Shown here piece by piece: positions 1 through 53,671 of a stretch of 64,000 bases of DNA. Position numbers and translations under genes: made by a program. Every line of letters begins with the position of its first letter. Positions within the stretch are counted from its first letter, which is position 1. Source of the stretch: an uncultured Pelagibacteraceae bacterium (GTDB taxonomy: Bacteria; Pseudomonadota; Alphaproteobacteria; Pelagibacterales; Pelagibacteraceae); contig CACIHQ010000003.1 in the NCBI GenBank assembly GCA_902586495.1, forward strand, positions 36,606 through 100,605. The letters are read 5' to 3'. The notes beneath the pieces are model-generated. The model had not been told where the DNA came from and made no database searches. It worked only from the letters and a program-made list of their open reading frames with translations.

Positions 1-2274
1 TGAGGTAGATTTTCCTATTATTTTATCTTCTAAATAAATAGGCTCATCGTGAAGTAATAGTGGTTCTCCAGGCTTACTATCTTTTAAAATAAACATTGCA
101 AATCTCATTTTAATATTTTTTTTATCAATCTTTTCAAGAGCCGACTTTCCAACAAAATCTACATTTTTTTTATTACTGATTGTAAAAGAAAGACCTGCTT
201 GATATTGATTTTCTTCAGGCGAAATATCGTGTCCCCAGTGTAGAAAACCACTTTCCATTCGCATAATATCCATTGAATGCATACCACAATTTGAAAGATT
301 AAAATCTTTACCTTTTTCAATAATTAATTCATAAATTTTTTTGGCATCTTTAGCTTCTACGTAAAGTTCGTATCCTAATTCCCCAACGTAAGACAATCTC
401 TGTGTCCAAATTTTAGTATCTATGATTGAAATAAATTTAGCAGTTCCAAATTTAAAATTTTCATTGTCAAAACTATCTTTACTTAACGAACTAATAAGAT
501 TTCTACTTTTAGGTCCAAATAAACCAAAAACACAATAATCATCAGTCACATCTATTAATTCAATGTTTTTATTTAAATGTTTTTTGATGTGGTGCTTGTC
601 TCTTTCTCTTGTTGCGGCAGAACTAATTATTCTAAAATGGTTTTCATCAATCGCCGCTATAGTTAAATCAGTCTCAATACCTCCATCTGAGTTTAACATA
701 TGAGTATAGGTACATTTACCAACTTCTTTTTTAATATTTGCAGTGCAAATTCTTTGTAATTCTTGATGGGCTTTATCAGATTTTATTTCGAACTTTGAAA
801 AAGGAGTTAGATCAAATAAGCCAACATTCTTTAAAGTATTATTAGTTTCATACTCAGCTGAAGGATACCAACTTTGATAGTTATAACTATATTTATACTC
901 CGCCTTTTCACCATCTAGTGCAAACCACATAGGTCTTTCATACCCACCCGAGACACCAAAACATGCTCCAAAGCTTTTCAAATTATCATGATGTGGTAGT
1001 TTTTTTATGTCTCTAGAAGTTTTATGCTGTTTAAAGGGCCAATGCATTCCATACAAATCTCCTAATGATTCTGTAATTCTTTTTTTTATAAAACCTAAAT
1101 CTGAATGAAATTTTTGAAATCTTTTTATATCATAACTAAAGATATCCTCATTAATATGACCAGTCATCAACCACTCTGCTGTAACCTTTCCAACACCACC
1201 ACCACTGCCAATTCCAATACTATTTAAACCACAACATACAAAAAAATTCTTAACCTCAGGTACTTCTCCTAATAATGTGTTGGTATCAGGAGTAAAAGAT
1301 TCTGGTCCTGAAAAAAATTTTCTAATTCCAGCAGTTTCTAAAATTGGAAATCTTTTAATTGCTGAAGCTAAATAAGGTTCAAAATGTTCAAAATTTTCTT
1401 GAAACTCACCGAAGGAGAAATCCTCTGGAACTTTATTAGTTTTATTCCAAGCAGGAATTGAATTTCCTTCAAAAATTCCAACTAGTATTTTCCCTGCATC
1501 TTCTTTTATATAAGTTCGATTATCAAAATCTCTTACCACTGGTAAAGTTTTAGACAAATTTTCAATCGGTTCAGTGATTATATAAAAATGTTCAGCTGGA
1601 TATAATGGAATACTAACACCAGCTTTTTCTCCTATTTGTCTCGACCACATACCTGAGGCTAAAACAATATATTCACATTCAATTTTTTGGCCTTTAACTT
1701 TAACTCCAGAAATTTTTCCATCTTTAGTTAAAATTTCTTCAACTGGTGATTTCTCAAAAATTTGTGCCCCTTCTAATCTTGCTGCTTTAGCCAACATATG
1801 TGTAACTCCTGAAGGATCAGCGGCACCATCGCCTGGCATTAAAATTCCTCCTATGACTTCATCTGTATTAATAATTGGATAATCTTTTTTAATTTGATCT
1901 TTATCTAAAATTCTTACGTCAACATCATAAAGTTGTGCTGTCGTAGCTTGTCTTTGAAGTTCTTGCCATCTTCCTTTATGCTGAGCAATTGAAAGTGCTC
2001 CGTTTAATCTTAACCCCGCAGAGTGATCAACTTTTTTCTCAAGTTCTTTATATAAATCTAGAGTATATTTTCTTATTTTTGTTACTGCTGCTGTTGGACC
2101 CAACTGACTTACTAGGCCTGCCGCATGCCAAGTTGTGCCTGATGTTAATTGATCTCTTTCTAAAAGAATTGTGTCTTTCCATCCAAATTTAGCTAAATGA
2201 TAAGCAACAGAGCAACCTACTACTCCACCTCCTATCACAACAACTTTTGTACTACTTGGAAATTTTTTTTCCAT
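1..2274 (-). CDS. FAD-dependent dimethylglycine/sarcosine dehydrogenase-like protein with GcvT-type C-terminal domain (3' end truncated by window edge)
   Basis: Absent from the ORF track because it has no stop inside the window. Reverse-strand reading from ATG at 2274 gives MEKKFPSSTKVVVIGGGVVGCSVAYHLAKFGWKDTILLERDQLTSGTTWHAAGLV..., an N-terminal GxGxxG FAD motif plus an aminomethyltransferase-like C-terminal half; similar to the complete protein at 36833-39265. Confidence 0.9.
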   Translation of the reverse strand, partial: MEKKFPSSTKVVVIGGGVVGCSVAYHLAKFGWKDTILLERDQLTSGTTWHAAGLVSQLGPTAAVTKIRKYTLDLYKELEKKVDHSAGLRLNGALSIAQHKGRWQELQRQATTAQLYDVDVRILDKDQIKKDYPIINTDEVIGGILMPGDGAADPSGVTHMLAKAARLEGAQIFEKSPVEEILTKDGKISGVKVKGQKIECEYIVLASGMWSRQIGEKAGVSIPLYPAEHFYIITEPIENLSKTLPVVRDFDNRTYIKEDAGKILVGIFEGNSIPAWNKTNKVPEDFSFGEFQENFEHFEPYLASAIKRFPILETAGIRKFFSGPESFTPDTNTLLGEVPEVKNFFVCCGLNSIGIGSGGGVGKVTAEWLMTGHINEDIFSYDIKRFQKFHSDLGFIKKRITESLGDLYGMHWPFKQHKTSRDIKKLPHHDNLKSFGACFGVSGGYERPMWFALDGEKAEYKYSYNYQSWYPSAEYETNNTLKNVGLFDLTPFSKFEIKSDKAHQELQRICTANIKKEVGKCTYTHMLNSDGGIETDLTIAAIDENHFRIISSAATRERDKHHIKKHLNKNIELIDVTDDYCVFGLFGPKSRNLISSLSKDSFDNENFKFGTAKFISIIDTKIWTQRLSYVGELGYELYVEAKDAKKIYELIIEKGKDFNLSNCGMHSMDIMRMESGFLHWGHDISPEENQYQAGLSFTISNKKNVDFVGKSALEKIDKKNIKMRFAMFILKDSKPGEPLLLHDEPIYLEDKIIGKSTS

Positions 2275-19920: not shown

Positions 19921-21021
19921 ATGAAAATTGAACTTTCAGACAATAAAGTTTTTTTTGAAAATCAAGGATCAAAAAAAGAAATACACCCATTCTGGTTGAG
20001 AGAAAGAGTGAACGGTTTAGATTTTGTTGATAAAGGTACCAAACAAAGATTGTTTGATCCAACAACACTCAATCAAAATATTGAAATAAATAAAGTAAAT
20101 TTGACTGATAAATTTTTAGAGATTTCTTTTAATGACGGAGTTGAAACAAAAATATCAATTCAAAGTATCTTTGAAGAATATTCTGGTATTAATGATATAA
20201 AATTTATCAAAAAAACTAAATGGGACTCTTCTTTAAAAAATCTAAATAATTTTCAGTTCAGAAAAAATATATTTGAAGAAAAAATAATGTATGAAGCTTT
20301 AATAAGTTTCTATAAATATGGTTTCATTATTTTCAAAAATGTGCCGACAGAAAACAATTTCCTGGTAAAATTCGCAAATTCTATGGGTAGTATAAGGAGA
20401 ACGAATTTTGGTGAATTCTTTAATGTAAAATCAAAACCCAATCCCAATGATCTAGCTTATACATCTTTACCTTTAGCACCTCATACTGATAATCCTTATA
20501 GAAATCCAGTTCCATGTATTCAAATATTGCATTGTATTGAAAATGCAGTTGAAGGTGGATACTCTACTTTGGTAGATGGCTTTACAGTTACAGAGGAATT
20601 AAAAGAAAAATATCCTGAATATTATAAAATTTTAACTGAGGTGAAGGTAAAATATCAATTTATAGATAAGGATGTAATATTAGAAAATTGGGCTGAGATG
20701 ATTGAATTAGATGAAAATAAAAATTTTAAACAGGTTAGATTTAGCCCAAGGTTAGATTTTGTTCCATTAATTGATAAAAATAAATTAGATATTTACTATA
20801 AGGCAAGAAATAAAATTTCTGAATTGTATAATTCAAGCAAATATAGAATTGAATTTAAACTTCTTCCAGGAGATCTACTAATGATGGATAATTATCGACT
20901 TCTTCATGGAAGGACATCCTTTAATGCTAATCAGGGTAATAGATTTCTTCAAGGTTGTTATATAGATTATGATAGTACTGAAGGAAAAATTAAGCATCTA
21001 AAAAGAAAATTTAATATATAA
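19921..21021 (+). CDS. Gamma-butyrobetaine hydroxylase-like 2OG-Fe(II) dioxygenase
   Basis: N-terminal DUF971-like WLRERVNG and TauD-type core with LAPHTDNPYRNPVPCIQILHC and DNYRLLHGRTSF. Confidence 0.82.
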   Translation: MKIELSDNKVFFENQGSKKEIHPFWLRERVNGLDFVDKGTKQRLFDPTTLNQNIEINKVNLTDKFLEISFNDGVETKISIQSIFEEYSGINDIKFIKKTKWDSSLKNLNNFQFRKNIFEEKIMYEALISFYKYGFIIFKNVPTENNFLVKFANSMGSIRRTNFGEFFNVKSKPNPNDLAYTSLPLAPHTDNPYRNPVPCIQILHCIENAVEGGYSTLVDGFTVTEELKEKYPEYYKILTEVKVKYQFIDKDVILENWAEMIELDENKNFKQVRFSPRLDFVPLIDKNKLDIYYKARNKISELYNSSKYRIEFKLLPGDLLMMDNYRLLHGRTSFNANQGNRFLQGCYIDYDSTEGKIKHLKRKFNI

Positions 21022-21022
21022 A

Positions 21023-21202
21023 TTATTTATTAAAACAATTATTCACTAATATTGCCATTAATATCCAAATGACAAAAGTTTCACCATGGGTGAAAGAATA
21101 ATCCGCTCCAGCAAATCCAGCAACTATATTGATTGCATAAATAATTACGGTAGAGACTAATAAACTTAAGAATAATTTTACTATTCCATTAATATATTTC
21201 AC
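21023..21202 (-). CDS. Small membrane protein (59 aa, GTG start)
   Basis: Not in ORF track. Manual reading: VKYINGIVKLFLSLLVSTVIIYAINIVAGFAGADYSFTHGETFVIWILMAILVNNCFNK*; two hydrophobic segments. Confidence 0.5.
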   Translation of the reverse strand: MKYINGIVKLFLSLLVSTVIIYAINIVAGFAGADYSFTHGETFVIWILMAILVNNCFNK

Positions 21203-36083: not shown

Positions 36084-36833
36084 TTAAATTACCTTAGCCT
36101 CATTTTTTAATTTGTGAACCAATTCAGATACACTAGCAACTTTAATGCCAGCTTTTCTTTTAGGCGGCTCTTCAACTCTAATTTGCTCGATTCTTGGACT
36201 TATATCTACTCCTAAATCTGACGCATTTAATTTCTCAATAGGTTTTTTTTTAGCTTTCATTATATTTGGTAATGAAGCATACCTTGGTTCATTTAATCTT
36301 AGATCACATGTTACTATTGCTGGAACATTTATTTCTATTGTTTCTAAACCTTCATCTATTTCTCGTGTAACCTCTAACTTACCATCTTTAATCTCAATTT
36401 TAGATGCAAAGGTAGCTTGAGGCCAATTAAGAAGTGCACTTAACATTTGACCTGTTTGATTACAATCATCATCGATTGCCTGTTTACCCATAAAGACTAA
36501 ATCTGGTTTTTCTTTTTCAACAATTTTTTGTAATAATTTAGAAACAGAAAGAGGTTCAACAACTCCTTCTGTTTTAACGAGTATTCCTCTATCTGCTCCG
36601 ACTGCCAACGCCTTACGAACTGTTTCTTGTGCTTTCTCTTCACCAATGCTTACTGCTAATACTTCTGTAGCTTTACCAGATTCTTTAATCTTTACCGCTT
36701 CTTCAATTGCATTATCATCTGGTGGATTGGTCGACATTTTGACATTGTCAGTTACTATACCCGAGTTGTCTTCTTTCACTCTGATTTGAACGTTGTAATC
36801 AATCACTCTTTTTACTGCTACTAAAATTTTCAT
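36084..36833 (-). CDS. etfB: Electron transfer flavoprotein beta subunit
   Basis: [25 protein letters not shown]...[19 protein letters not shown]...[26 protein letters not shown]. Confidence 0.96.
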
Positions 36834-39265
36834 TAAGCTCTCAATAATTTATTCTCAGCGTCATAAGGACTTTCGTCAAGAATTGTAGCCTCATACATCT
36901 TTCCAAGAATATCAACTTTTAGTTTCTCTCCAACATTAGCTAGATCAGGTTTTACCATTGCTAAAGCTATCGATTTATCAATTCTAAATCCGTATTCACC
37001 ACCAGTTGCTCTTCCAACAACCTTATTATCTTTATAAATCGGATTATTTCCCAATACATCGGAGTCAGTAGTATTGTGAACTTCAAGAGTAACTAATTTA
37101 TTATCAAAACCTTTTTCTCTCCATTTATTTAAGGCCTCTAGACCAATAAAATTTCCTTTATTTGGATGAACAAATCTATCTAAACCAGATTCATATGGAG
37201 CATACTCAATTGATAATTCGGTTCCTACAAGCTTATAAGATTTTTCAATTCTTAAACTATTCATTGCTCTAATACCAAATGGCTTTATTCCCAAATCTTT
37301 ACCCGCTTCCATCAATTTATCAAAAATATGATTTTGATACTCAATTGGGTGATGTAACTCCCACCCTAACTCCCCAACAAAATTTACTCTCATCGCATTT
37401 ACTGGTGCGTATCCAACATTAACATTTTTTGCAGTTAACCATTTAAAATTTTCATTTGAAAAATCATCTATTGAAACTTTTTTCATTAATTCTCTTGCTT
37501 TAGGTCCTGCAACAACAAGAACTCCTGTACTGTTAGTTAAATCCTCAAAAATTACAGAGCCATCAGTTGGCATCCATTTTTGTATCCAGTCGTGGTCTAA
37601 TCGTAAATTTGCCCCAGCAGAAACGAGATAATAACTATTTTCTGCCTCTTTCATAATTGTAAATTCTGAATGAACACCACCTTTTGTGTTTAATGCGTGG
37701 CATAAATTTATTCTACCAATTTTTTTCGGAAGTTTATTTGCGACTAAATAATCAAGAAATTCCTCAGCTTTTGGTCCTTTAATTCTACATTTTGCAAATG
37801 CAGTCATATCTAAAAGGCCAACGTTTTTTTTCACGTTCTCACATTCTTTTTTTATTGCATCAAACCATTTTGATCTTCTAAAAGACCAGTCGTCTTTTTG
37901 TTCCATGCCATCAGTTGCAAAAAAATTAGGACGTTCCCATCCAAATTTTTGTCCAAATACAGCTCCTAAGGCTTTCATTCTTTCATAACACGGTGCAGTT
38001 CTTAAAGGTCTTGCTGCTGGTCTTTCTTCATCAGGATAATGAACTATAAAAACATGGCTATAAGCCTCCTCATTTTTAGCTTTCAAATAAGACTTAGTGG
38101 CATAATTTCCATATCGTCTTGGTTCTACGCCTAACATATCTATAGTTGGTTCTCCATCTACAATCCATTCTGCTAATTGCCAACCAGCACCACCTGCAGC
38201 GGTTATTCCAAAGCTATGTCCTTCGTTGATCCAAAAATTTTTTAAACCCCAAGCAGGACCAACTATTGGATTACCATCTGGAGTATAACAGATTGCTCCA
38301 TTATAAACTTTTTTAACTCCTACTTCTCCAAATGCAGGTACACGATGTATTGCACCTTCAATATGTGGAGCAAGTCTGTCTAAATCTTCCTGAAATAATT
38401 CATACTCTGAATTTTTTGAAGGTCCTTCGACATAACAAGCAGGAGCACCATCCTCATATGGACCTAAGATTAATCCACCAGCTTCTTCTCTCATGTACCA
38501 TCTGCTGTCACTATCTCTTAAAACTCCCATCTCTGGAAGACCTTCTTTTTTTCTTTTTTTAATCTCTGGATGTGGCTCCGTTACGATGTATTGATGTTCA
38601 ACAGGTATGACTGGAATATCTAATCCAACCATTTCTCCCGTTTGTCTTGCAAAATTACCTGAGCAAGAAATCACATGTTCACATTCAATTGAACCTTTGT
38701 CGGTTTCAACTATCCACCCATCTTTAGTTTGTTTCATAGATAAAACAGTTGTGTTTCGATAAATTTCAGCTCCTCTATTTCTTGCACCCGTCGCTAACGC
38801 CTGAGTTAAGTCAGCAGGCTGTATGTAACCATCTTCTGGATGTTGAATAGCACCTACTAAATCATCTGTATGACATAAAGGCCAAATTTCTTTTACTTGT
38901 TGAGGAGTTAAAAATTTTACATCTACACCTATTGTTTTAGCTACGCCTGCATATTGATGGTATTCATCCATTCTATCTTTAGTACTCGCTAAACGAATGT
39001 TTGAAACAACACTAAAGCCTACATTTTTACCTGTTTCCTCCTCTAATGTTTTATAAAGATTAACCGCATACTTATGAAGCTGACCAACTGAATAGCTCAT
39101 ATTAAAGAGTGGCAGTAACCCAGCTGCATGCCAAGTAGAACCAGATGTAAGTTCCTTTCTTTCAACTAAAACAACATCCGACCAACCTTTTTTTGCTAGG
39201 TGGTATAGTGCACTTACACCCACGACACCTCCGCCAACAACAACTACTTTTGTTTTAGTTTTCAT
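36833..39265 (-). CDS. Dimethylglycine/sarcosine dehydrogenase-like FAD protein with GcvT C-terminal domain
   Basis: 810 aa; [46 protein letters not shown]-terminal GcvT region ([22 protein letters not shown]). Confidence 0.92.
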
Positions 39266-40364: not shown

Positions 40365-40814
40365 TTAAATTTTTTGATCGAGACGTGGTTTCCAAAAAGG
40401 TCTAAATAGTTCTATCTTTGGACACCTGTTCATTACAACTTTAAGTCCAGCCTCCTCAGCAATACGAGCTGCTTTATGATTTATTACCCCTATCTGTCCC
40501 CACAATACTTTGGCACCAATAGCGATAGCTTCTTCAGCAACGCCATATAAATCCTCCGACTTTCTAAAAACTTCAACCATATCTACAGGTCGGTCAATCG
40601 CAGCCAAATTTGGATATACTTTTAAATTACGAATTTCTGTTATTTCTGGCTTTGGATTTACTGGTATCATATCATATCCAGTTTCATGCAATACTCTTAA
40701 AACACCATAACTAAATTTTGTTTTATCTGGACTAGCTCCTACCATAGCAATTGTTTTTACTGAATCTAGAATATCTTTCAAATATTGATCACTATAGGGC
40801 TCGTTATGATTCAT
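40365..40814 (-). CDS. CoA-binding domain protein (YccU-like)
   Basis: IAMVGASPDKTKFSYGVLRVLHETGYDMIPVNPK...LWGQIGVINHKAARIAEEAGLKVVMNRCPKIE. Confidence 0.9.
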   Translation of the reverse strand: MNHNEPYSDQYLKDILDSVKTIAMVGASPDKTKFSYGVLRVLHETGYDMIPVNPKPEITEIRNLKVYPNLAAIDRPVDMVEVFRKSEDLYGVAEEAIAIGAKVLWGQIGVINHKAARIAEEAGLKVVMNRCPKIELFRPFWKPRLDQKI

Positions 40815-41172
40815 TTTTTTTTGTAGCTATATCTGCTTTTAACTCATGAGGTGCAAGTGGGTCAAGAAAAGGATTGCGATAAAGCTTATCATGACTTTCA
40901 ACTCCAATTTCTATCTTACAATCAGTTTTAGGTCGAGCTACACATAAAACAATATAACCATTGTTTATCTGCCGATTATTTAAAGCGACTTGAGATTTCT
41001 GATCTACTTCACCTTCAATAAGTTTTGCAGCACAAGTTATGCATCCTCCATACTCACAACCGTAAGGAAGATCAACTCCTTGAGTACGTAATTCTTGAAG
41101 TAATGGTTTACGATCTGAAACCTTAAATGTTTTATTTTTCCGATTCTTGATAGTTATTAATTTTATAGCCAT
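40804..41172 (-). CDS. 2Fe-2S plant-type ferredoxin
   Basis: GVDLPYGCEYGGCITCAAKLIEGEVDQ...GYIVLCVARPKTDCKIEI: Cx4CxxC...C. Confidence 0.93.
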   Translation of the reverse strand: MAIKLITIKNRKNKTFKVSDRKPLLQELRTQGVDLPYGCEYGGCITCAAKLIEGEVDQKSQVALNNRQINNGYIVLCVARPKTDCKIEIGVESHDKLYRNPFLDPLAPHELKADIATKKNES

Positions 41173-42533
41173 ATATCACTTGTACAGTCACCGCCAGGAT
41201 ATCTACTTTCATGACATCTACTTGGCCCATTTGGTTCTTTACCAAAATCAATTATAAAATCTTTATTAATTTTCATACCGCCATTTTTTACATCACAATC
41301 TATCATTATCATTGCTCCGCCTTGAGTTCTTATTTCAGGATAAAATTGATTATCCCATGTTGAAAATAATGATGTAGTTACATACATCCTTTTACCATCT
41401 AACGATAGTTGATACATTTGAGGTCCACCTGTAATTTTAACTCCGTTGACAACTGGTGCTTTACCTAACAAACCTCCCATCCATACTTGACCTGTTAACT
41501 TAGGTTTATGAGGATCAGTTATATCGTATTGTCTCAAATCACCATGAAGCCAATTATTTAAATATAGATATTTGTCATCCATTGAAACTAAAATTGCCGA
41601 CATTACTCCTGGTATAGGTATAGGCCAATCTGGATGAGGCTCATTATCAACATCAATGATTTTTTCCCATTCCCATTTTCCTTTTTTAGATTTCCAAAAA
41701 TGGATAACATTAGAACTTAGAGCTGCTCCACAAAATCCATGAGTACTATTAGGATCGTGTTTAAACTTTACTTCCAAAGGTATTAAACCATCTTCACCTA
41801 GATACATCGTTTCAACGGGTTCTTTTTTTTTAAAATCCCAAATATGAAGTCTTCGACCATATTTTAAATGTCCAACCTCTTCGAGATCAAACCCTGGCAT
41901 GAAAGTATTTGGCGCTGCCCACTCTGAGCTTACCATAACATTGTGACGTGGTTGGTACCAAAAATCGTAACTAAATGGAATATCTCCCATTGAATTTTCC
42001 CATCTACCAACAATTTCAAATTCTTTGTTTAAATGCAAATAACCTCCTGGAGCTTCACCTTTTGCGTTTCCAAGAAAAGAAATAATTATTTCGGATCCTA
42101 AGCAATGAACAGTATGAGGTCCTGAAAGATTAGTTTTTGATTTAATTTCTGACCCTTTAATAACTTTATGTATTTTAGGAGCATATGGATCTGTTGCTGT
42201 ATCAATCACATGAATATTATTTGACCTAACACCGGGTACAAGAAGGTATTTTCTACTCATACCAGAATCACCGTGACATGATGAACATGCATTCCATCCC
42301 ATGTGATGTAACTCATCACCAATACCTGGCATTTCAAGACGGTGAATTACTTTTGAATAATTTGGACTATCTGGATCAACATCGATAGTAGCAAGGTAGT
42401 CAGGTTTTTGAATTCCTGTTCCTGTATAAATAGCTATTGTATATAAAAGTTTTTCATTTGGCGCTTTGATAGCCTCAGCTGGACTTGCATACCCTGGGCC
42501 GCAGCAAGGATTATTTATAGTTTTATTAATCAT
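41163..42533 (-). CDS. Selenium-binding protein 56 / methanethiol oxidase-like
   Basis: CCGPGYASPAEAIKAPNEKLLYTIAIYTGTGIQKPDYLATIDVDP...HHMGWNACSSCHGD...GPHTVHCLG...HPDWPIPIPGVMSAILVSMDDKYLYLNNWLHGDLRQYDI. Confidence 0.92.
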   Translation of the reverse strand: MINKTINNPCCGPGYASPAEAIKAPNEKLLYTIAIYTGTGIQKPDYLATIDVDPDSPNYSKVIHRLEMPGIGDELHHMGWNACSSCHGDSGMSRKYLLVPGVRSNNIHVIDTATDPYAPKIHKVIKGSEIKSKTNLSGPHTVHCLGSEIIISFLGNAKGEAPGGYLHLNKEFEIVGRWENSMGDIPFSYDFWYQPRHNVMVSSEWAAPNTFMPGFDLEEVGHLKYGRRLHIWDFKKKEPVETMYLGEDGLIPLEVKFKHDPNSTHGFCGAALSSNVIHFWKSKKGKWEWEKIIDVDNEPHPDWPIPIPGVMSAILVSMDDKYLYLNNWLHGDLRQYDITDPHKPKLTGQVWMGGLLGKAPVVNGVKITGGPQMYQLSLDGKRMYVTTSLFSTWDNQFYPEIRTQGGAMIMIDCDVKNGGMKINKDFIIDFGKEPNGPSRCHESRYPGGDCTSDIWL

Positions 42534-44347: not shown

Positions 44348-44408
44348 ATAATTATATTATAGGATGAATTTCTTTGACAGTATTTTCAAAAGATATAATT
44401 ATCTAAAT

Positions 44409-45137
44409 ATGAGATTTTCTCTTGAAATAAGTCCCAAAACTGACTTAAGCACTATTCCAAAAGTTAGTGATGTTTATATCACAATGTTGCCTGGTGGTGA
44501 CTACAAAAAAACAGCTCAACAAGCAGTTGATTTAGTTAAAAAAGGCTTTAACCCAGTTCCTCATTTCCCTGCTCGATCAATGCAAGATGAAAAACAGCTA
44601 AAAGATTATGTTTCTAGATGTAAAGATGGGGGTGTAAAACAAGTGCTGGTAATCGGAGGTGGTAGAGAGCCGATGGGAAAATTCGATAGCTCCTTTCAAC
44701 TTTTAGAGACTGGTTATTTTGAGAAGATGACCATAGGAATTGCTGGACACCCAGAGGGGAGTCCTGATATATCCGACTCAGATTTAAAAAAAGCTATGAT
44801 AGATAAAAAACCTTATGCTGATTATATAGTAACACAATGGTTGCTAGATCCTCAACCTATTATAGATTTTATATCAAAACAAAGTGTACCAGTCCATGTA
44901 GGGATTACTGGGCCCCTAAAGATATCGAGCCTAATAAAATTTGCAAATATCGTTGGAGCAAAAAATTCCTTAAATTTTCTTAAATCTAATTTCAGCAAGG
45001 CATTAGATTTATTAAGACCTAAAGACCCAAATGATTTAATTGGGAAAATTAAATCTCATACTGATTTTTTCCACATTTATACATTCGGCGGCTTGACGGA
45101 AACTAACAAGTGGTTGAAGGAGAACAATTATGTCTAA
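44409..45137 (+). CDS. Divergent methylenetetrahydrofolate reductase (MetF)-like protein
   Basis: MRFSLEISPKTDLSTIPKVSDVYITMLPGGDYKKTAQQAVDLVKKGFNPVPHFPARSM...; ORF track starts at 44364 but a promoter-like TTGACA-N17-AATTAT (44374-44102 range, see findings) lies inside that extension, so ATG 44409 is preferred. Confidence 0.8.
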   Translation: MRFSLEISPKTDLSTIPKVSDVYITMLPGGDYKKTAQQAVDLVKKGFNPVPHFPARSMQDEKQLKDYVSRCKDGGVKQVLVIGGGREPMGKFDSSFQLLETGYFEKMTIGIAGHPEGSPDISDSDLKKAMIDKKPYADYIVTQWLLDPQPIIDFISKQSVPVHVGITGPLKISSLIKFANIVGAKNSLNFLKSNFSKALDLLRPKDPNDLIGKIKSHTDFFHIYTFGGLTETNKWLKENNYV

Positions 45138-46488
45138 AGAATTTGATTATACAAAATTAAAACATGCAACATCAGTAGATCAATCTGATCGAGAAGTACC
45201 TTATAACTTAAGACAAAGTGGACCTACCAAAGTTGAAATGCTTATATCAACAAGAGTTAGAAAATCACCTTATTGGCATTTATCTATGCAAGCAGGATGT
45301 TGGAGGGCAACAGTATACAATCGAATTTATCATCCAAGAGGATATGTAAAACCTGAAGATGGTGGAGCGATGGTTGAGTATGATGCAATTGTAAACCATG
45401 TAACGATGTGGAATGTTGCAGTCGAAAGACAAATAAGAGTAAAAGGTCCTGATGCAGAAAAATTTGTAGATTATGTAATAACTAGAGACGCAACAAAAAT
45501 TTCTCCAATGAGAGCAAGATATGTAATTTTATGTAATGCATACGGTGGAGTTTTAAACGATCCTATTCTTTTAAGAATTTCAGAAGATGAATTCTGGTTT
45601 TCTCTATCAGACTCAGACATTGGAATGTATCTACAAGGCGTAAACGCTGATGGAAGATTTAATTGTAAAATTGAAGAAACTGACCATTGCCCAGTTCAAA
45701 TACAAGGTCCTAAATCTAAAGCTTTAATGAAAGATCTTTGTGGTGATCAATTTGATTTGGATAATATGCCTTTTTACGGATTGGCTGAGGCAAAAATCGG
45801 AGGAAGAAGTTGTGTAATTTCACAATCTGGTTTCTCAGGTGAAGCTGGATATGAGATTTATTTAAAAAATGCAACACTATACGCGGATGATATGTGGAAC
45901 GCTGTTCTAAAAGCTGGTGAAAAACATAATTTGATGGTTATTGCTCCAGCTCACCATAGAAGAATCCAAGCAGGTATACTTTCTTGGGGACAAGATATGG
46001 ATCAACAACATAATCCTTTTCAGTGTAATCTCGGTTATCAAGTCTCTTTATCTGGTAAAGGAGAATGGAATAAAAAGTCTGACTATGTAGGTAAAGAAGT
46101 TTTAGAAAAAATGAAGTCAGAAATAAAAGCAGGAAAGAAACCTTACAAACTGCAATTAGTTGGTTTAGAACTGGGTGGAAAGCCAATAGAAGATTATGCA
46201 CCTGATTTTTGGTTAATCTCAAATATAAATGGTGGTGATCCTGTAGGATTTATTACTTCTCCTTGGTGGCATCCTGAAAAAAAGACTAATATTGCAATGG
46301 GCTACGTTCCTTTTGACGGGACTCTGAATGCTAATGGATTTCCTAAAGGAAAGGTCGGAACTAAATATAAGGTTCATCTACCAGAAAAATATTCAAATAG
46401 TCCAGGTCAACCAGTAGATGCAGTTATAGTTGATATACCATTCAAAGAGTCTTTTAATGCAAATACAAGAGAGGTGGTTACAGGTTAA
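45130..46488 (+). CDS. GcvT/DmdA-family tetrahydrofolate-dependent methyltransferase (demethylase-like)
   Basis: VRKSPYWHLSMQAGCWRATVYNRIYHP...VERQIRVKGPDAEKFVDYVITRD...VQIQGPKSKALMKDL...SGFSGEAGYEIYL; overlaps the MetF-like stop. Confidence 0.85.
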   Translation: MSKEFDYTKLKHATSVDQSDREVPYNLRQSGPTKVEMLISTRVRKSPYWHLSMQAGCWRATVYNRIYHPRGYVKPEDGGAMVEYDAIVNHVTMWNVAVERQIRVKGPDAEKFVDYVITRDATKISPMRARYVILCNAYGGVLNDPILLRISEDEFWFSLSDSDIGMYLQGVNADGRFNCKIEETDHCPVQIQGPKSKALMKDLCGDQFDLDNMPFYGLAEAKIGGRSCVISQSGFSGEAGYEIYLKNATLYADDMWNAVLKAGEKHNLMVIAPAHHRRIQAGILSWGQDMDQQHNPFQCNLGYQVSLSGKGEWNKKSDYVGKEVLEKMKSEIKAGKKPYKLQLVGLELGGKPIEDYAPDFWLISNINGGDPVGFITSPWWHPEKKTNIAMGYVPFDGTLNANGFPKGKVGTKYKVHLPEKYSNSPGQPVDAVIVDIPFKESFNANTREVVTG

Positions 46489-46628: not shown

Positions 46629-47171
46629 ATGTTTGGAGAGTTTTTAAATATTATCTTTAAGTCTATTAAACTAGACAAGTCTCTTTATACAGATAGTAGA
46701 AATTTTGGTGAAGCCTCAATTTATTTTGCTGGATTAATTATGATCTTAGATGGAGTAGCGGGTGCTGTAGCTGCAAATACAGTTATCAAAACAGCTATTG
46801 GGATGTCAGGACTAACAGCAATTTTGACTTGGTTTATTTGGGCAATTTTAATTTATGTTTTGGGAGTGAAGATATTTCCTGATAAACAAACAAAAGTATC
46901 TTTTAAAAAAGTGTTAACTTTTGTTGGATTTGCTCACGCTCCAGGTTTGTTGAGGTTCTTCGCAGTCACACCTGAACTGATGATACCAATAATTTTTATT
47001 ACTCAATTTTGGATTTTTGCTGCGCTAATTATCTCAACAAGACAAATTTTAAATTTTAAATCAAATTTAAAATCTTTTGGAATTGTGTTCTTATCTTTTC
47101 TAATTATTGTCTTCTTATCTATTTCTTTTGTAATGAGTAGAATGAATGCTTTACCAGTAAACAGTATTTAA
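46629..47171 (+). CDS. Yip1-family membrane protein
   Basis: 180 aa multi-TM; AAGLIMILDGVAGAVAAN-type region and FKKVLTFVGFAHAPGLLRFF. Confidence 0.75.
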   Translation: MFGEFLNIIFKSIKLDKSLYTDSRNFGEASIYFAGLIMILDGVAGAVAANTVIKTAIGMSGLTAILTWFIWAILIYVLGVKIFPDKQTKVSFKKVLTFVGFAHAPGLLRFFAVTPELMIPIIFITQFWIFAALIISTRQILNFKSNLKSFGIVFLSFLIIVFLSISFVMSRMNALPVNSI

Positions 47172-51985: not shown

Positions 51986-53671
51986 ATGGCTAAAGTAAAA
52001 TCAGATATAGAAATAGCAAGAAAAGCTAAAATGAAACCAATAGGTAAAATTTTAGCAAAAATTAAAGTTCCAGATGAGAGTAGTGCTTTCAGTCCAATGG
52101 GTAGACATATAGCAAAAATTAATTTTGAGTTTTTAGATAAATTAAAGAAAAAAAAAGATGGTAAATTAATTTTAGTCACTGCAATAACGCCTACACCAGC
52201 TGGTGAAGGAAAAACAACGACTTCGGTTGGTTTAAGTGATGGTTTAAATAAAATTGGTAAAAAATCTATCGTTTGTCTTAGAGAACCTAGTCTTGGTCCA
52301 TCTTTTGGAATGAAAGGCGGTGCTGCAGGAGGTGGTTATGCTCAAGTAGTTCCTATGGAACAAATAAATTTACATTTTACAGGTGACTTTCATGCAATTA
52401 CTTCAGCACATAATTTACTTTCAGCAATGATAGATAACCATATTTATTGGGGGAACAAACTAAATATTGATGAAAACAAAATAGTTTGGAAGCGTGTGAT
52501 GGATATGAATGATCGCGCTCTTAGATTTATTGACATTAATACTAGTGGGGTTGCTAAAGATTTCAAAAGAGTTGACGGTTTCGATATAACAGTCGCATCA
52601 GAAGTAATGGCAATTTTTTGTCTCTCTAATGATTTAAAAGATTTAGAAAAAAGAATTGGTAATATTACTTTTGCATATGACAAAAATGGAAAGCCACTTT
52701 ATGCTAGAGATATAAATGCTCATGGTCCTATGACGGTTTTACTCAAAGAAGCCATCAGACCAAATGTAACTCAAACTTTAGAAAATAATCCAGCAATTAT
52801 TCATGGAGGTCCATTTGCAAATATTGCTCACGGATGTAATTCAGTGATTGCAACGAAAACCGCTTTAAAATTATCTGATTATGTAGTTACTGAAGCAGGA
52901 TTTGGTGCAGATCTTGGTGCAGAAAAATTTTTAAATATTAAGTGTAGAAAAGCAGGCCTGACTCCAAGCTGTGTGGTAATAGTTGCAACAATAAGAGCAT
53001 TAAAGATGCATGGTGGTGTTGAAAAAGAAAACTTAAAAAAAGAAGATATTACTTCCTTAGAGAAAGGACTAGTTAATTTAGAAAGACACATTTCAAACAT
53101 TAAAAAATTTGGTTTAGAGCCAATTGTAGCCATAAATCATTTCGCACTTGATACCAAAGAAGAGGTAAATACTGTTTTAAATTTTTGTAAAAAAAATAAA
53201 GTAGAGGTCAGTGAATGTAAACATTGGGCTACAGGTGGAAATGGCACGAAAGACCTTGCAAAAAAGGTTGTTAAAGTTTGCAAAAATAAGAAAAATAAAT
53301 TTAAATTTTTATATAATAATAATCTTAAACTTTGGGATAAAATTGAGTTGATTGCCAAACAAATCTATAAAGCTGACAAAATAACTGCTGATGAAAAAGT
53401 TAAAGAACAATTAAAAGTTTTTGAAAATAATGGTCATGGAAATTTACCAGTTTGTATTGCAAAAACTCAATTTAGTTTTTCAACAGACCCAAAGCTTAAG
53501 GGTGCTCCATCAAATCATGAAATACCAATAAGAGAAGTGAGATTATCATCAGGAGCAGAATTTGTGGTGGTTGTTTGTGGTTCAATAATGACAATGCCAG
53601 GATTACCAAGAGTACCAGCAGCTGATACTATTAAGTTAAACCAAAAAGGCCAAATTGAGGGATTATTTTAA
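51986..53671 (+). CDS. fhs: Formate-tetrahydrofolate ligase
   Basis: [62 protein letters not shown]. Confidence 0.97.

Follow-up and report, generated by a model that had tools for sequence, protein, structure and literature searches.

We propose that P0001, a 452-residue protein of the GcvT superfamily encoded in a 64,000-nucleotide stretch of a Pelagibacteraceae genome (hereafter the window), is a glycine betaine demethylase that depends on THF, consists of one protein, and uses no corrinoid; its methyl-THF product would be oxidized by the MetF-like protein of the overlapping gene, and we put the probability of this reading at roughly three in four. With somewhat less confidence, we favor a broader view in which P0001 would represent a family of single-protein, corrinoid-free, O2-independent glycine betaine:THF methyltransferases, spread by transfer in Bacteria and haloarchaea and providing the main route of bulk betaine oxidation in SAR11. 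The proposed betaine assignment is strong for one drawn from genomes, and it appears to be new as far as the literature was searched: no GcvT-type betaine demethylase is described there, with most subscription papers falling outside the coverage.

In the proposed mechanism, P0001 would bind glycine betaine together with THF, whose N5 would accept one of the N-methyl groups, with N,N-dimethylglycine and 5-methyl-THF as the products. On the analogy of DmdA, the step would require neither corrinoid nor oxygen. The MetF-like enzyme would work in the oxidative direction, from 5-methyl-THF to 5,10-methylene-THF, and the carbon would then pass to CO2 through FolD, Fhs, and formate dehydrogenase, while the FAD- and GcvT-domain-containing dehydrogenases of the window would convert dimethylglycine to sarcosine and then to glycine. 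We infer the substrate, the oxidative direction of MetF, and the P0001 reaction from genomic evidence. An initial sequence-only reading had suggested a THF-dependent demethylase with recycling of methyl-THF, and this predicted activity fits the GcvT/DmdA fold, the folate residues, and the conserved linkage to MetF (often with Fhs); the same reading left the substrate open, and gene context across phyla now points to glycine betaine. One chemical point counts against betaine: its demethylation has to release a tertiary amine, which leaves less readily than the thioether of DMSP.

The gene pair and its window

The MetF-like gene (44409–45137, forward strand) and the P0001 gene (45130–46488, forward strand) were both located as the sequence-only reading had described them, with an 8-nt overlap between the P0001 start at 45130 and the MetF end at 45137. 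The longest MetF open reading frame begins at 44364, but the ATG at 44409, giving 242 aa, is the likelier start, because the frames of relatives are 242 aa long and the match to 7xg9 begins at residue 3. The MetF-like protein is divergent, a marginal member of PF02219 (25.3 bits; gathering cutoff 24) that falls far below the equivalog model TIGR00676 (24.2 versus 293.7), yet its nearest solved relative with an MTHFR fold is clearly 7xg9 (E 7e-33). In the SAR11 genomes of genus g1 examined, it is the only PF02219 match where any was found, and an ordinary MetF is present in genera g2–g4. The pair is conserved and was noticed earlier without an assigned function. It is not a chance arrangement, because 203 of the 247 Pelagibacterales genomes sampled carry P0001 and the MetF–P0001 arrangement recurs in several SAR11 genomes, in other bacteria, and in haloarchaea.

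Several further genes of the window would serve the same pathway. As anticipated from sequence, fhs, encoding formate–THF ligase for a later step of THF-linked C1 oxidation, lies near 52 kb (51986–53671, forward strand). A dimethylglycine dehydrogenase (DMGDH) gene at 36833–39265 (reverse strand), encoding FAD oxidase and GcvT domains and assigned by its match to rat DMGDH (4p9s) and human DMGDH (657 bits), would provide the step that follows P0001. A second FAD- and GcvT-domain protein of the DMGDH/SARDH type, encoded at 1–2214 (reverse strand) by a gene truncated at the window start, is a candidate sarcosine dehydrogenase and shares 33% identity with the DMGDH.

Two other features lie near the pair. 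A tight array at 40365–42533 (reverse strand) encodes a CoA-binding protein, a 2Fe–2S ferredoxin, and a protein (677.9 bits) of the SBP56 family, which we take to be the methanethiol-oxidase family; no SBP56 gene was found around the pair at three other SAR11 loci (L216–L218). Directly 3′ of the pair, a gene at 46629–47171 (forward strand) encodes a predicted membrane protein of 180 aa with no Pfam match, which is kept at the same three loci.

Betaine-pathway genes and the first step

For the analysis of gene context, all open reading frames within 10 kb of 85 P0001 loci were clustered, and recurrent families were identified by family scans. The recurrent neighbors are FAD- and GcvT-domain dimethylglycine dehydrogenase/oxidase, MetF, Fhs, SoxA, SoxB, GbdR, L-serine ammonia-lyase, GlyA, and a BCCT transporter. 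Marker queries detected DMGDH or dimethylglycine oxidase at 64 of the 85 loci, MetF at 51, Fhs at 22, SoxA/B at 19, a GbdR-like regulator at 16, and BCCT at 8, in a sample whose 80 contig loci were picked by sequence rather than by context, with near relatives included and L192, a stretch that missed the gene, left out of the counts. As a control, DMGDH was found near none of 14 true DmdA genes. In a separate class-wide draw supplemented with a few SAR11 loci, 10 of 17 P0001 loci had a DMGDH or sarcosine oxidase gene no more than 10 kb away, versus 1 of 14 loci of true DmdA genes (p 0.007; the Fisher p-values and genome counts given here and below ignore shared ancestry). P0001 thus has the conserved context of dimethylglycine and sarcosine enzymes by which we recognize glycine betaine demethylases as a functional class.

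At one locus (L131), SoxA, SoxB, a GbdR-like regulator, P0001, MetF, Fhs, and DMGDH all occur together, and no GbcA match was found in that genome. The DMGDH-type neighbor in Marinobacter best matches dimethylglycine oxidase, and both Marinobacter regulators tested exceed the cutoff for GbdR, a regulator responsive to betaine and dimethylglycine (PMC12093977). Haloarchaeal plasmids carry, in varying combination, genes for P0001, MetF, GlyA, FolD, Fhs, formate dehydrogenase, dimethylglycine-oxidase-type proteins, threonine/serine ammonia-lyase, and BCCT. Adjacency of dimethylglycine oxidase and BCCT genes in haloarchaea has been described in a paper that names no enzyme for the first step (PMC3102087). 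On a Haloarcula marismortui plasmid (L057), a Rieske oxygenase that is distantly GbcA-like (20028–21167; 132 bits versus a cutoff of 670) is encoded between two dimethylglycine-oxidase-type genes, near the P0001 ortholog.

Might the betaine genes be neighbors by regulation only, with P0001 acting on another quaternary ammonium compound such as proline betaine, carnitine, homarine, trigonelline, or choline? BCCT transporters are broad, and some P0001 loci are devoid of pathway genes, with only housekeeping neighbors at two of them (L180 and L189). We nevertheless consider such a substrate unlikely, given that the products of betaine demethylation are themselves the substrates of DMGDH and sarcosine oxidase, and that the recurring neighbor families identified include no genes for pyridine, proline-betaine, or carnitine catabolism.

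Betaine degradation proceeds through dimethylglycine, sarcosine, glycine, and serine to pyruvate (PMC12093977). The fullest P0001 clusters contain the later steps of this route and none of the known enzymes for converting glycine betaine to dimethylglycine, which makes P0001 a candidate for that step. GbcA scores above its cutoff in 3 of 34 P0001 genomes, and MtgB-type proteins occur in 2 of the 34 and are absent from 32. Among nine Marinobacter genomes with P0001, eight have no GbcA over the cutoff and one does. True GbcA accompanies P0001 in M. iranensis, Halomonas, and Litchfieldella, and actinobacterial P0001 genomes encode GbcA-like Rieske proteins (about 400 bits versus the cutoff of 670); P0001 is therefore not always the sole first-step candidate. 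Strict mutual exclusion of P0001 with BHMT or GbcA was considered and rejected, as many genomes carry both.

Within Pelagibacterales, where BHMT was scored as a PF02574 protein, DMGDH is present in 193 of 247 genomes. These 193 divide into 140 with both P0001 and a PF02574 protein, 43 with P0001 only, 10 with PF02574 only, and none with neither; by comparison, 10 of the 54 genomes lacking DMGDH have neither. The genome of the window (assembly G000, 79.5% complete) is among the 43 that combine DMGDH and P0001 with no PF02574 (betaine–homocysteine-methyltransferase-type) protein, a set that also includes genomes of 96–99% completeness (G017, G024, G036, G048, G060, and G072). P0001 thus occurs in many genomes where DMGDH is present and the known first-step enzymes scored there are absent. 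In the non-g1 genera of the window's family (f1), P0001 and DMGDH occur together in 11 genomes, are both missing from 23, and are discordant in one (11/1/0/23; p 3e-8). Five of these genomes have no linked P0001 in the 20 kb around DMGDH, where the best GcvT-like match reaches at most 24–26%, and the coupling there is therefore independent of linkage. Class-wide, a close DMGDH type is found in 15 of 18 P0001 genomes versus 86 of 367 others, and the remaining three have a divergent DMGDH-like gene (35–37%) in the operon. One genus of f1 (g5) is split between genomes with P0001 and DMGDH without PF02574 (e.g., G070 and G136) and genomes with PF02574 alone (e.g., G034 and G038).

Orthologs of P0001, at 50–89% identity, were found in SAR11, other Alphaproteobacteria, Marinobacter, Halomonas, Actinomycetota, Acidobacteriota, Gemmatimonadota, Nitrospinota, and haloarchaea, with two Pelagibacteraceae contigs (L136 and L138) among the relatives at 89%. 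The gene content of the window likewise fits an origin in Pelagibacterales (SAR11). This patchy spread over phyla, together with the haloarchaeal plasmids, suggests that the family has been spread by transfer.

P0001 within the GcvT superfamily

Membership of P0001 in the GcvT/AMT superfamily is clear from its match to GCV_T (PF01571; 138.8 bits versus a cutoff of 25.6). Its closest solved relative is DmdA (E 3e-43; E 7e-59 in a profile search), and the AlphaFold model superimposes best on DmdA 3tfh (Foldseek; TM 0.86 on the target, 25% identity). The mean pLDDT of this model is 64.9, with low values at the N-terminal extension and at residues 275–303, and the pocket was therefore left out of substrate inference. 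The GcvT/DmdA fold with folate-site residues is supported: in the strip F235...E242, Y244 (45832–45861, forward strand), E242 and Y244 are conserved and correspond to the DmdA folate residues E204 and Y206. As described from sequence, P0001 is longer than DmdA, by about 80 aa, and the motif quoted at that time is present and largely conserved across the family. The added length includes a family-specific N-terminal extension, VDQSDR.VP.NLRQSG (aa 16–31; 45175–45222, forward strand), that is nearly invariant in 55 members and absent from DmdA. Gln232 is a further mark of the family, with Arg at this position in the DmdA, DmdA-like, GcvT, and DMGDH rows compared.

Classification of P0001 as a DmdA, GcvT, or LigM was rejected on the basis of model cutoffs and phylogeny. 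It scores 228.7 bits against DmdA model NF009133 (curated cutoff 410), 151.6 and 130.3 bits against GcvT models NF001567 and TIGR00528 (cutoffs 300 and 235.9), and 36.4 and 44.5 bits against LigM/DesA models NF047885 and NF047633 (cutoffs 580 and 800). A separate protein of the same genome (on G000:C1) has the best GCV_T score there and was taken as GcvT. In a maximum-likelihood tree of 86 rows, spanning the P0001 family, DmdA, GcvT, LigM, and DMGDH/SoxA domains, the P0001 family forms a single clade (100/100, stem 1.07) outside the other four; the DmdA clade (100/100) holds 12 of the 13 DmdA rows. The branches of GcvT, LigM, and the oxidase domains are long, making their own placement unsure. 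Grouping inside a clade with an assigned substrate, which the sequence-only reading had named as grounds for rejecting its proposal, did not occur. An alphaproteobacterial DmdA-like group (L162–L170 and L054; about 336–393 bits) also lies below the DmdA cutoff and outside the DmdA clade, and it probably comprises further THF-dependent demethylases. L054, tried as a P0001 ortholog, was rejected, as score and tree place it as a sister outside the family.

The kinship with DmdA, the use of DMSP by SAR11, and an SBP56-family gene 2 kb from the pair could indicate that P0001 demethylates DMSP, or MMPA (removing the second DMSP methyl) to yield mercaptopropionate. Such a role is, in our judgment, highly unlikely: a true DmdA (540.7 bits) is encoded separately in the same genome, P0001 lies far below the cutoff and outside the clade of DmdA, and its dimethylglycine and sarcosine enzyme neighbors recur in haloarchaea and Actinomycetota. 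Trp197 of 3tfh has been named key and specific for DMSP (PMC7487153; numbering there is offset by 26, and the mapping was made here), and its position is occupied by Phe235 in all 55 family members, although Tyr in 7 of 14 DmdA rows makes it a weak discriminator. The ECH gene near the pair resembles ECHDC3-type hydratases. Considered as a DmdD in support of MMPA, it was rejected, with ECHDC3-type best matches and no DmdD-named entry among the 60 best PDB matches. The least plausible reading, for which co-location and the GcvT fold would speak, is that P0001 is an accessory aminomethyltransferase that, like GcvT, loads THF with formaldehyde-level units supplied by DMGDH or sarcosine oxidase. 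Against it, the oxidases have their own GcvT domain, P0001 sits on the DmdA side of the tree rather than with GcvT or the oxidase domains, and MetF linkage implies methyl-THF, not methylene-THF.

Comparison with known systems

What would a betaine demethylase of this kind mean for SAR11? Among marine nitrogen osmolytes glycine betaine is a major one, and no marine heterotroph is more abundant than SAR11. BHMT uses one homocysteine per betaine and is better suited to methionine supply than to bulk energy, and many SAR11 genomes lack a BHMT-type enzyme. If the glycine betaine assignment is true, a direct THF route would explain the burning of betaine methyl groups in SAR11, the gap at the first step of the haloarchaeal and Marinobacter pathways would be filled, and studies of betaine catabolism in oceanic and hypersaline waters would gain a marker gene.

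The pair has a counterpart in strain HTCC1062, SAR11_1264/1265, with orthology taken from the same MetF–AMT adjacency and a matching description. In 2011, SAR11_1265 was listed as an aminomethyltransferase of unassigned substrate adjacent to metF, with MMPA as a guess (Sun et al. 2011, PMC3160333); we propose glycine betaine instead. The same study credited the first step of betaine degradation in SAR11 to BHMT (SAR11_1173) and described the role of Fhs in THF-linked C1 oxidation (PMC3160333). Transcripts of the MetF and P0001 counterparts in HTCC1062 drop together 5–10-fold under the same conditions (PMC5069961), as expected of one operon.

DmdA (3tfh/3tfi/3tfj; NF009133) shares with P0001 the GcvT fold, the folate residues, and methyl transfer to THF, which for P0001 is proposed. 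P0001 differs from it in sequence (about 25% identity), in its separate 100/100 clade, in the N-terminal extension, in the Phe at Trp197, and in its betaine-pathway neighbors. The O-demethylases LigM and DesA are GcvT-type THF demethylases working with an oxidative MetF, and they have the fold and the linked MetF in common with P0001; unlike LigM, P0001 scores 36 bits against the cutoff of 580, and no aromatic catabolic genes were seen near it. For the corrinoid proteins MtgB/MtgC, conversion of betaine and THF to dimethylglycine and methyl-THF is established, with a dedicated metF2 linked in Ruegeria (PMC12478193). The net reaction is the same as that proposed for P0001, but MtgB/MtgC is an unrelated multi-protein corrinoid system. 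GbcAB and BHMT likewise perform the pathway step proposed for P0001, from betaine to dimethylglycine, but the former is a Rieske oxygenase and the latter is homocysteine-dependent; their folds differ from that of P0001, and they are missing from many P0001 genomes. If our reading is true, P0001 would be an alternative to BHMT for this step in SAR11, where many genomes have no BHMT-type protein.
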